64,000 nt of DNA, from NCBI RefSeq assembly GCF_030818935.1, contig NZ_JAUTBD010000001.1, positions 248,001 through 312,000 of the forward strand, read 5' to 3'. A program made the translations under genes and the position numbers. The DNA comes from Microbacterium sp. SORGH_AS_1204 (lineage in GTDB: Bacteria; Actinomycetota; Actinomycetes; Actinomycetales; Microbacteriaceae). Below are positions 37,949 to 40,611 of this stretch, one piece after another. Every line of letters starts with the position of its first letter. The stretch's first letter is position 1. Under the pieces are notes generated by a model that saw nothing but the letters and a program-made list of their open reading frames with translations, searched no databases and had not been told where the DNA came from.

Positions 37949-40611
37949 CCGCGCGGTCCGTCGGCCGGGAGCGAGTGGCGGGTGCCGGCGCTCGTCTCGA
38001 GGTACGGGGCATGGGGGTCGGGCAGGGGCGACGCGACTTGATAGTCGGTGGTGCGCAGGCGGAACGGTCGCATGAGGCTGCGCGCGAGGCGCTCGGCGGC
38101 GGCGACGGGGAGCTGCAGCCCCTGCTCGATACCGGTGTCGGGCAGGACGCGCCCGTCGTAGAGGGTGCCGCCGAGGTCGTCGCCACCGGAGCGCAGCAGC
38201 ACGGCCGCGGTCTCGCGTCCGACGCGGGTCCACGGGATCTGCACGTGCGGAATGCTGCCTGACAGCAACAGCCGCGATACCGCGACCATCGCGCGGTGCT
38301 CGTCGAGCGGGGCACGGCCGGGCACCAGCGGCACGTCGCCGCCGGGCAGCGGGATCGGCACGAACTCGGCGAAGCCGCGCGTCTCGGTCTGGATCTCGCG
38401 CAGGCGCCGCAGGTGCGCGATGCGCTCGCCGGCGGTCTCGACGTGGCCGTAGAACAGCACCGAGGTCGAACGGAAACCGGCGTGGTGGGCGGCCGTGATG
38501 CCCTCGATCCAGCGGTCGATCTCGAGATCGCCCGGCGCGACGAGCGCGCGCACCCGCTCGCTGAGGACCTTTACGCCCGTCCCCGGGACCGTGTCGACGC
38601 CCGCCGCCCGCATCGCGGCGAGAGCTCCGTCGAGCCCGAGACCGCCGCGATCGGCGAGGTCGCGCACGTCGAGCGGGCGATACGCGTGCACATGGATGCC
38701 GGGCGCCCCACGTTTCACGGCCCGCACGAGATCGAGGTAGCCGGCGGGATCTTCGTCGGCGCGGAGGGCGCCCTGGATGCAGATCTCGGTGGCGCCGAGG
38801 TCGGCGGCATCCGTGGCGATGGCGGCCGCATCGTCGAGGTCGAATTCACCCGGAGCGGTGCGGCCGGAGCGGCGCAGGCCGGTCGAGGTGAGGTTGCGGT
38901 TCTGCACGAGCGTGATCGGCTCGCCGACGGTATAGCGACGCGCGTCGTCGGCGACGACGGTGAGGTCGTCGAGCTCGCGGCCGGTGGCGCGCAGCAGGCG
39001 CGTCCAGTCGGCGTCATCGAGGGAGAGGGGGGTGGATGCCGCCCGCTCGGCGAGTCGACGCACGCCGGGGTCGGTGCGTGCTGCCTGGCGGGGGGTGTCC
39101 GTCGGCACGGGGCGGCGCGGGGCGTCCGTGTGCGTGGGACGAGCGGAGGGTGTGGGACCGGCGGAGGGCGGGATCTCTCGGGTCGGTCCTCCCTCCGTCC
39201 CCGGTCCTCCGCTCGTCACGCCCGGCGACTCCACGCCCGGCGACTCCACGCCCGGCGACGTCACGCCCGGCGACTCCACGCCCGGCGACTCCGCGCCCGG
39301 CGACTCCACGTCAGACGACTCCACGCCCGGCGTCATCGCGAACGCATCCGCCGGGCCGAGCGTGGCATCCACGCCCACCGCCCCGGCCGCCAGCCCCGCG
39401 GCATCCGCCAACGCCTGCACGGGCGCGTGCAGGCTCGGGTCGATCCAGCGCTCGGCGTCGCGCACGTACTCGGGGTGGGCCGTGAGGCGCTCGCGCAGCA
39501 GGAAGCCTCGCGCGGCGGTGTGCCCGGCGAGATCGTCGATCTGCGGCCACGGGCGCTCGGGGTTGATGTGGTCGGCGGTGAGGGGCGACACCCCTCCCCA
39601 GTCGTCGGCCCCCGCTTCGATCAGCAGGCCGAGCTCGCGCGGGTCTGTCAGGTTCGGCGGCACCTGGACGCGCATGTCGGGGCCGAACACCAGGCGCGCG
39701 ACGGCGACGGCGGCCAGATACTCGTGCATGTCGGCATCGGGTGCGCCCTGCATGGCGGTGCGGGGTTTCGCGCGGAAGTTCTGCACGATGACCTCTTGCA
39801 CGTGCCCGTGGCGGTCGTCGAGCTCGCGCAGGGCGACGAGCGACTCGGCACGATCGCGCACGGTCTCGCCGATACCGACGAGGATGCCGGTGGTGAACGG
39901 GATGCCGGCGGCTCCGGCGTCGTCGATCACTCGCAGCCGGAGCGCCGGGTCTTTGTCGGGGGAGCCGAAATGCACCCGACCGGGCTCTTCGTAGAGCCTC
40001 CGCGAGGTGGTCTCGAGCATCATGCCCATCGACGGAGAGACCGGGCGCAGCGTCGCGAGCTCGTCGGGATGCATGACGCCGGGGTTGGCGTGCACGAGCA
40101 TGCCCGTCTCGGCGGTGATGAGCCGGGCGATGTGGGCGACGTAATCGATGGTGGAGGCGAAGCCGTGCGCGTCGAGCCATTCGCGGGCCTCGGGCCACCG
40201 CTCCTCGGGGCGGTCGCCGAGGGTGAGCAGCGCCTCTTTGCAGCCGAGCGCCTGGCCCTGGCGCACCACCGAGAGAACCTGCTCGGGGCTCATGTAGGCG
40301 GACTTGCGCAGCAGGGCGAGCTGGCCGGGGGTGTCGACGAACACGCAGTAATGGCAGCGGTCGCGGCACAGCGTCGTGAGCGGCACGAAGACCTTGCGCG
40401 AGTAGGTGAGAACGTGGGGGCGGCCGGCGCGGGCGAGCCCGTCGTCACGCAGGGCGGATGCCACGCGGAACAGCGCGGGCAAGGGGGCGCCGAGCAAGGC
40501 CTCGGTCTCGTCGACATCGGGACGGTGGCCTGCCGCGATACGCGCCAAGAGGTCGTCGATCGAGGTGCCTCGGGCCGGTGCGACTCGCGGCGCAGCGCTG
40601 CCCGTACTCAT
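37945..40611 (-). CDS. fbiC: FO synthase FbiC-like (CofG-CofH fusion) with cysteine-less CofH half
   Basis: An 888-residue fusion. The CofG half (about 55-370) is canonical: radical-SAM cysteines C82, C86, C89 in LTTLCRDRCHYC, GCKEALLTLGDRPEER, HANPGVMHPDE. A long Pro/Thr-rich linker (about 425-500) holds a repeated GVESP unit. The CofH half (about 510-880) keeps the fold and late motifs (GATEICIQGA, VPGTGVKVLSERV, FYGHVETAGERIAHL, SIPHVQIPW, GGDDLGGTL). However, where family members have [19 protein letters not shown], this protein reads NRNLTSTGLRRSGR: no cysteine remains (residues about 573-587). FbiC normally makes FO from tyrosine and a diaminouracil with two radical-SAM sites. This one may be deficient in the CofH reaction or have changed function. 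Confidence 0.88.
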   Translation of the reverse strand: MSTGSAAPRVAPARGTSIDDLLARIAAGHRPDVDETEALLGAPLPALFRVASALRDDGLARAGRPHVLTYSRKVFVPLTTLCRDRCHYCVFVDTPGQLALLRKSAYMSPEQVLSVVRQGQALGCKEALLTLGDRPEERWPEAREWLDAHGFASTIDYVAHIARLITAETGMLVHANPGVMHPDELATLRPVSPSMGMMLETTSRRLYEEPGRVHFGSPDKDPALRLRVIDDAGAAGIPFTTGILVGIGETVRDRAESLVALRELDDRHGHVQEVIVQNFRAKPRTAMQGAPDADMHEYLAAVAVARLVFGPDMRVQVPPNLTDPRELGLLIEAGADDWGGVSPLTADHINPERPWPQIDDLAGHTAARGFLLRERLTAHPEYVRDAERWIDPSLHAPVQALADAAGLAAGAVGVDATLGPADAFAMTPGVESSDVESPGAESPGVESPGVTSPGVESPGVESPGVTSGGPGTEGGPTREIPPSAGPTPSARPTHTDAPRRPVPTDTPRQAARTDPGVRRLAERAASTPLSLDDADWTRLLRATGRELDDLTVVADDARRYTVGEPITLVQNRNLTSTGLRRSGRTAPGEFDLDDAAAIATDAADLGATEICIQGALRADEDPAGYLDLVRAVKRGAPGIHVHAYRPLDVRDLADRGGLGLDGALAAMRAAGVDTVPGTGVKVLSERVRALVAPGDLEIDRWIEGITAAHHAGFRSTSVLFYGHVETAGERIAHLRRLREIQTETRGFAEFVPIPLPGGDVPLVPGRAPLDEHRAMVAVSRLLLSGSIPHVQIPWTRVGRETAAVLLRSGGDDLGGTLYDGRVLPDTGIEQGLQLPVAAAERLARSLMRPFRLRTTDYQVASPLPDPHAPYLETSAGTRHSLPADGPRG
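39218..39337. repeat. 15-bp in-frame repeat in the fbiC linker
   Basis: Eight near-identical 15-mers (ACGCCCGGCGACTCC and variants) encode the repeated pentapeptide G-V-E-S-P in the FbiC interdomain linker. The in-frame period means copy number can change without breaking the gene. Confidence 0.9.

Follow-up and report, generated by a model that had tools for sequence, protein, structure and literature searches.

Coenzyme F420 is built on the deazaflavin FO (7,8-didemethyl-8-hydroxy-5-deazariboflavin), and, according to the part available of a 2021 review, the use of two radical S-adenosylmethionine (SAM) domains to make FO is universal in all studied producers (PMC8498797). In the same source, CofH makes a p-hydroxybenzyl radical from tyrosine and adds it to 5-amino-6-ribitylaminouracil (ARU), and CofG then closes the ring. 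The locus described here lies in a 64,000-nucleotide stretch of the Microbacterium sp. SORGH_AS_1204 genome (contig NZ_JAUTBD010000001.1, positions 248,001 to 312,000), referred to as the window. Its fbiC gene encodes a CofG half fused to a CofH half that has lost the cysteines of its radical-SAM cluster. This Cys-less form of CofH is called CofH* below. The gene that follows codes for a Baeyer-Villiger monooxygenase (BVMO). It appears, with a probability of about three in four, that CofH* and the BVMO together replace the radical CofH step by an O2-dependent one. The sequence basis of this reading is that the cluster ligands are lost, the barrel is kept and re-specialized, the pairing with the BVMO is consistent, the other F420 genes are present, and the two forms exchange in the same chromosomal slot. 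A first-pass annotation of the locus had held that FO synthesis needs both clusters. This is the published view in the available part of PMC8498797, and the genomes compared here suggest that it has exceptions.

Loss of the cluster ligands from the CofH half

The first-pass annotation had reported an intact CxxxCxxC motif in the CofG half and a CofH half that lacks its radical-SAM cysteines in an otherwise well-conserved domain, and both observations hold. C82, C86, and C89 are in place in the CofG half, and residues 571-587 of the CofH half (NRNLTSTGLRRSGRTAP) are free of Cys. The stretch from NRN to QG has 44 residues in the window (NRNLTSTGLRRSGRTAPGEFDLDDAAAIATDAADLGATEICIQG) compared to 55 in the Cys-intact protein of Herbiconiux. 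With 11 residues fewer, the loop has been both shortened and stripped of its three Cys. The CxxxCxxC ligands of a [4Fe-4S] cluster are absent from CofH* of the window and from all 57 aligned Cys-less sequences (a set in which a few genomes occur twice), and C611 is the sole invariant Cys in alignment A1. The second Gly of the QGG motif, a SAM site, is invariant in 93 Cys-intact sequences and missing in 57/57 Cys-less ones; the window has A615 there.

Profile matches separate the two halves. The CofG half scores 462.7 bits against NCBIfam TIGR03550 and passes its cut-off of 213.35, and it has the CxxxCxxC motif. The CofH* half scores 294.3 bits against the equivalog model TIGR03551, below the cut-off of 374.1, though with an E-value of 9.7e-88. 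Other Cys-less sequences also fall below this cut-off (L284, 300.9 bits; L334, 283.3 bits), and a Cys-intact control (L247) reaches 563.8 bits on TIGR03551 and passes the models for both halves. The structure predicted for CofH* by AlphaFold2 is a confident barrel (mean predicted local distance difference test score, pLDDT, 93.4), and profile and predicted fold together assign it the barrel and the descent of the CofH family. CofH* is a descendant of CofH. It is not to be filed as CofH because it lacks the cluster ligands and falls below the cut-off, two features that define a CofH. Since the CofG half scores well, annotation may treat Cys-less genes as ordinary fbiC.

Spread of the Cys-less state

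What had been presented as a loss in one protein is a clade-wide state across the genus and in further genera and families. A sample of 119 Microbacterium genomes gave 65 fbiC matches, one of which (G001) was dropped as it covered the linker only (residues 409-475). The loop, read in the DNA of the remaining 64 genomes, is Cys-less in 64/64. The 888-residue frame is open, as the first-pass annotation had noted, and the agreement among all 64 rules out a frameshift, an assembly error, or chance as the origin of the Cys-less loop. Two fbiC-BVMO pairs (L005/L135 and G079:C13:49813-53708) occur in one assembly of the sample, G079, which has 700 contigs and 5% contamination; the second copy may come from contamination.

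A normal CofH query matched 94 of 398 Microbacteriaceae genomes, with identities of either 78-100% or 35-55%. Among the 40 family loci fetched with flanks, 33 are Cys-less (one, G492, is itself a Microbacterium) and 7 are Cys-intact, and both loop types occur within each of the genus codes g12 (Herbiconiux), g17, and g77. At the level of the order, 55/297 genomes matched, and the 20 loci fetched comprise 18 Cys-less, 1 Cys-intact, and 1 fragment with the loop unread. At the level of the class, 269/394 genomes matched, and at least one further Cys-less genome (G917) was found among the 30 loci returned; its locus is the one Cys-less case among the 6 fetched. A set of 80 named loci consists of 10 Cys-less ones, all from Microbacterium, and 70 Cys-intact ones. 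The distinct Cys-less genomes number 116, namely the 64 of the genus sample and 52 more (one Microbacterium, the rest from other genera or families). For loops that the script did not recognize, inspection by eye or another pattern identified L033, L038, L234, and L235 as Cys-less and L273, L281, and L316 as Cys-intact; two fragments with the loop unread (L210, L302) are excluded from the counts.

A Baeyer-Villiger monooxygenase paired with CofH*

The GTG start of the BVMO gene overlaps the fbiC stop by four bases (GTGA). The gene lies just outside the region covered by the first-pass annotation, which had missed it. Type I BVMOs carry the fingerprint FxGxxxHxxxW[P/D], and the BVMO of the window has it (FGGPIFHTARWD). 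The F-G-H-W pattern is found in 73/75 BVMO sequences compared (again with a few genomes twice) and the final P or D in 58/75. The fold predicted by AlphaFold2 (mean pLDDT 90.2) has the two dinucleotide-binding domains. By sequence and predicted fold, the protein encoded at 36425-37948 is a type I BVMO.

The BVMO gene follows fbiC or cofH*, directly or past one small gene, in 115/116 Cys-less genomes. At the remaining locus (L225) the contig ends 133 bp past fbiC, and L246, with the same genus code, has the BVMO. In the genus sample, this BVMO is found at E<=1e-100 in 64/119 genomes, which are the same 64 that have fbiC. It lies just downstream on the same strand in 64/64, 63 of them by script and G010 by coordinates (end of the fbiC match at 1033922, start of the BVMO match at 1033937). 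Outside the genus sample, the BVMO stands behind the Cys-less gene in 32/33 cases in Microbacteriaceae, 18/18 in the order, and 1/1 in the class. Among the named loci, it is present at 10/10 Cys-less and 0/70 Cys-intact ones, 2 of the 70 having short flanks. The full Cys-intact set has 158 loci from ~144 distinct genomes (L184-L209, L247-L253, L260-L283, L303, the Cys-intact members of L304-L339, and the 70 named). Downstream DNA of 1.3 kb or more is available at 154 of these, and none of the 154 has a BVMO there; flanks were too short to judge at L041, L106, L209, and L316.

Further evidence for the pairing comes from loci in which the two halves of FbiC are separate. In families f15 and f8 (L284-L299, n=16), a free-standing CofH* of 335-411 residues has the BVMO immediately behind it, and a cofG gene is found separately in 15/16 (in L287 it is out of view). 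Because the BVMO stays with the free-standing CofH* while CofG is separate, it is the partner of CofH* and not of CofG. In G693 (L300, family f9), CofG and CofH* share one frame, which is followed by a hydrolase gene and then by the BVMO. An alpha/beta-hydrolase-like gene also stands between fbiC and BVMO at 13 loci outside Microbacterium (L218-L223, L233-L236, L241, L244, and L246); five of the 13 were run against Pfam, and 4/5 pass an alpha/beta-hydrolase cut-off. At L216 and L217, a shortened hydrolase is, by eye, apparently fused to the N-terminus of the BVMO.

Locus exchange, phylogeny, and selection

At two slots, related genomes carry different forms of the locus. In G917 (L334) the slot holds genes in the order cofH*-BVMO-cofG; in two genomes of the same genus, G908 and G991 (L335, L336), it holds a normal fbiC with both halves fused. 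The neighbors are shared (TypA-like GTPase 88-90% identical, ferredoxin 90%, aminotransferase 72-74%, solute-binding protein 56%), and one or two other small genes differ. Between L334 and these congeners, CofG is 73-74% identical and CofH* 43%. A similar slot in family f8 gives 74% for CofG and 46% for CofH* between L294 and L303, with 80-81% identity between the neighbors at one flank and 76% at the opposite flank, where L303 has four extra genes. Both slots look like a natural exchange between normal fbiC and the CofH*-plus-BVMO form.

The two halves have different trees. The CofG tree (85 rows, 56 Cys-less and 29 Cys-intact) has at least four type changes on well-supported branches, whereas the CofH tree, calculated with the loop removed, places all Cys-less sequences on one side of a single branch with support 100. 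Both are quick trees of 85 chosen rows, supported by the Shimodaira-Hasegawa-like approximate likelihood ratio test only, with some long branches and without L235, L243, and L244, whose frames are partial. With BVMO states entered from the locus census, the BVMO tracks the loop type in 4/4 independent pairs of the CofG tree. The type changes in CofG, set against the single CofH branch, suggest that a cofH*-BVMO module has moved, taking the BVMO along each time. The simplest account of the sequences would be that this module arose once and then laterally replaced the CofH part about three times. The alternative is that differential loss from an older double state caused the conflict between the two trees. 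Pairwise distances over 55 rows correlate at r = 0.82 between CofH* and BVMO and at 0.68 between CofH* and CofG (partial correlations 0.66 and 0.26).

Measured against eight relatives, the ratio of nonsynonymous to synonymous substitution rates (dN/dS) lies at 0.11-0.25 for CofH*, 0.10-0.26 for CofG, and 0.11-0.29 for the BVMO; as judged from this ratio, CofH* is under purifying selection. What has changed in the domain? Across 93 Cys-intact CofH sequences, 167 positions reach a conservation of 95% or more. Of these positions, 61 are kept in at least 90% of the 57 Cys-less sequences, 24 in between 50% and 90%, and 82 in fewer than half. The kept positions include NRN, GATE.C.QG, H640, H642, PGT, H709, YG, and W794. 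The last group contains the cluster Cys and the second QGG Gly, together with positions that are uniformly replaced, for example at 645 (S to R) and 820 (E to G), in 57/57 each, and at 725 (D to E, 98%). Replacements this uniform suggest that the domain has changed its function and not lost it. CofH* as a pseudogene is ruled out by the dN/dS values and the class-specific invariant residues.

The F420 pathway in the genome

In addition to fbiA and fbiD in the window (Table 1), a cofE-family gene is present elsewhere in the genome, so that fbiA, fbiD, and cofE of the F420 pathway are all there. In the genus sample, fbiA exceeds its cut-off in 69/119 genomes, which include all 64 carriers of fbiC. 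The first-pass annotation had offered three options, a second CofH, FO from elsewhere, or a new role of the domain, and had proposed a search for a separate cofH. The search of the genome (3.7 Mb, one contig) found a single fbiC and no second CofH. Of the three options, the new role agrees with the present reading. The other radical-SAM genes found with PF04055 are all assigned, to MoaA (twice), MiaB, HemW, LipA, the Rv2578c and MSMEG_0568 families, RlmN, and the spore photoproduct lyase family. Each of the 94 matched family genomes likewise has exactly one match to the normal CofH query at E<=1e-30. With the other F420 genes present and the other radical-SAM proteins assigned, the gene content indicates that this bacterium very probably makes and uses F420 and that its FO most likely comes from the fbiC-BVMO locus.

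Five Microbacterium genomes (G002, G061, G066, G077, and G116; loci L147, L148, L149, L150, and L151) have fbiA over the cut-off and no FbiC match at E<=1e-3; they also have fbiD- and fgd-like genes. In G002, G066, G077, and G116, these lie in one island with cofE-like (by eye), extra luciferase-like monooxygenase (LLM)-type, and transporter-like genes, which may mean uptake of FO or F420. In G061, the usual slot is without both fbiC and the BVMO.

A proposed O2-dependent route to FO and its alternatives

How might a barrel without a cluster and a BVMO do the work of CofH? The replacement of CofH by the pair is well supported by genomics; its chemistry we infer. CofH* and the BVMO would couple a p-hydroxybenzyl unit derived from tyrosine to C5 of ARU. 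The BVMO, with O2 and NADPH, would oxidize an arylacetyl carbonyl compound derived from tyrosine, either 4-hydroxyphenylpyruvate or 4-hydroxyphenylacetaldehyde. Migration of the p-hydroxybenzyl group would give a p-hydroxybenzyl oxalate or formate ester, and this ester would expel oxalate or formate to leave a p-quinone methide. ARU, and perhaps also the electrophile, would bind to CofH*, which would guide the attack and form the C-C bond without a radical. CofG, still a radical-SAM enzyme, would then close the ring to give FO, from which FbiD, FbiA, and CofE would build F420. A p-quinone methide is C7H6O, equivalent to the unit added by CofH, and its adduct with ARU matches the known CofH product in composition and redox level, so that CofG would need no change. 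A precedent comes from phenylacetone monooxygenase, which converts phenylacetone to benzyl acetate, inserting oxygen next to the benzyl group (PMC3404926, in the part available); a BVMO could therefore in principle deliver a benzyl electrophile without a radical. The full account, in which the BVMO supplies the quinone methide through an ester, the cluster-less barrel acts as a C-alkyltransferase, and the module arose once and spread laterally, is tentative and a little short of even odds.

Several points weigh against the O2-dependent replacement. Its support comes from genomic data and predicted folds, and FO and F420 production and the activity and substrate of the BVMO are predictions. Class B flavin monooxygenases such as plant YUCCA also decarboxylate arylpyruvates, and no benzyl electrophile arises that way. 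Two of the 75 BVMO sequences (L221, L033) are without the strict F-G-H-W pattern. The sign test on the four pairs of the CofG tree gives p 0.125, the best value possible with four pairs, and its BVMO states are from the census rather than tool-read. The absence of the BVMO from Cys-intact loci refers to the flanks, which are ~1.5 kb in about half of them; orthologues elsewhere were not sought. Finally, the intervening alpha/beta-hydrolase could destroy the ester rather than use it. A hydrolase that helps to cleave the ester or scavenges stray ester would fit the proposed route; the hydrolase is not universal.

Four other explanations have to be weighed against the O2-dependent replacement. The pair may make a deazaflavin other than FO whose changed ring or side group is tolerated by FbiA, FbiD, and Fgd; the BVMO would then modify either the aromatic precursor or the product. 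The positions that are invariant in normal CofH and uniformly different in CofH* would agree with this, as they may reflect a different substrate. CofG, FbiA, and Fgd, however, all score above their cut-offs, and congeners with the normal fbiC and with its replacement share one locus, which favors the same product and makes another deazaflavin unlikely. Less likely still is that CofG does both radical steps with one cluster while CofH* serves as a scaffold or ARU binder and the BVMO has a separate task, for example in F420-linked catabolism. The kept CofG motif and the 61/167 strongly conserved positions retained in CofH* are compatible with such a division of labor. The distribution of the BVMO speaks against it: the enzyme is encoded beside every readable CofH* and no Cys-intact CofH, pairs with CofH* even where CofG lies elsewhere, and in G061 is absent, like fbiC, from the slot that both normally occupy.

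That these bacteria import FO and carry a CofH half in decay finds some encouragement in the five genomes with fbiA and no fbiC match, which indicate that uptake may exist in the genus. The dN/dS of 0.11-0.25, the class-specific invariant residues, and the conserved free-standing CofH* genes speak against decay and make this explanation very improbable. A second, normal CofH elsewhere in the genome that supplies the step has next to no chance of being correct; at the sensitivity used, it is refuted for this genome by the single fbiC and the assignment of the other radical-SAM genes.

Features of the window

The usual Microbacterium order, seen in most loci compared, is fbiC-BVMO-fgd-fbiD with fbiA convergent.

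Table 1. Position, strand, and supporting evidence of the F420-related features in the window
Feature	Position	Strand	Evidence
fbiC variant, 888 aa; CofG half (residues ~69-398) fused to CofH* half (~533-858)	37945..40611	-	open frame and profile matches
CofG radical-SAM motif C82-x3-C86-x2-C89, intact	40345..40368	-	sequence; CofG cut-off passed
CofH* domain (residues 533-858), radical-SAM-type barrel without cluster ligands	38038..39015	-	TIGR03551 294.3 bits; AlphaFold2; fold match
Cluster loop NRNLTSTGLRRSGRTAP (residues 571-587), no Cys	38851..38901	-	sequence; within 38840-38910 of the first-pass annotation
Type I BVMO, 507 aa	36425..37948	-	fingerprint FGGPIFHTARWD, solved relatives, predicted fold, co-occurrence
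fgd, F420-dependent glucose-6-phosphate dehydrogenase	24425..25435	-	TIGR03554 458.2 bits, cut-off 420
fbiD/cofC, guanylyltransferase	23080..23715	-	PF01983 33.6 bits, cut-off 22
fbiA/cofD	21955..22935	+	TIGR01819 310 bits, cut-off 257.45

BVMO and fgd adjoin each other in most other Microbacterium loci compared. The ~11 kb that separates them in the window (25457-36298) looks like an inserted catabolic island, with dihydropyrimidinase/hydantoinase-like and nitrilase-like genes (both by eye), an aminotransferase, an LLM oxidoreductase, and ATP-binding cassette (ABC)-transporter-like genes. The linker between CofG and CofH* has, at 39200-39330, a run of short Ser-Pro-Gly-Val-Glu/Thr repeats whose DNA units are near-identical by eye. 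A small divergent gene upstream of fbiC (40730-41128, + strand) is kept in 23/31 loci compared and has no match in NCBIfam or Pfam.

Significance and comparison with known systems

An O2-dependent route to F420 does not appear to have been described before: in the open-licence part of PubMed Central, the body of literature covered here as distinct from subscription journals and preprints, none of the matches listed, judged by title and abstract start, deals with a Cys-less CofH or assigns a BVMO to FO synthesis. F420 and Microbacterium are both mentioned in two papers (PMC5408115, PMC9415550) that have, in their available parts, no bearing on FO synthesis. If the proposed route is true, FO synthesis by two radical-SAM domains would no longer be universal, one oxygen-sensitive cluster having given way to the use of O2. 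It would also provide a natural lead for oxygen-tolerant F420 production, where a suspected limit is that FO synthase is sensitive to oxygen (PMC11917521, in the part available). Furthermore, one clade of BVMOs would gain a physiological role; such roles are widely unknown according to the available part of PMC4498894.

The closest described system is the FbiC or CofG-CofH FO synthase (NF006687, TIGR03550, TIGR03551), with which the locus shares the domain order, an intact CofG half, a CofH barrel, and a similar gene context (fbiA, fbiD, fgd). Unlike standard FbiC, the protein of the window has a CofH half without CxxxCxxC and the second QGG Gly that scores below the CofH cut-off and is paired with a BVMO. 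The nearest solved fold to predicted CofH* is the aminofutalosine synthase MqnE (6XI9, 6XIG; template modeling score 0.83), which is a radical-SAM enzyme, whereas CofH* is without cluster ligands. The BVMO model resembles steroid monooxygenase (4AOX, Z 38.3), phenylacetone monooxygenase (1W4X, 36.2), and cyclohexanone monooxygenase (5M0Z, 39.8), which are also its best solved relatives, over ~460-477 residues, nearly its whole length, and has FxGxxxHxxxW in common with these type I enzymes; its invariant Arg287 probably corresponds to Arg337 of phenylacetone monooxygenase. It is only ~27-33% identical to these enzymes and is tied by gene order to a cofactor pathway. The replacement of HemN by HemF offers a parallel, as there too the task of a radical enzyme that is sensitive to O2 has passed to one that uses it. 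The difference is that here the old radical domain has been kept and would be re-used beside the O2-using enzyme.

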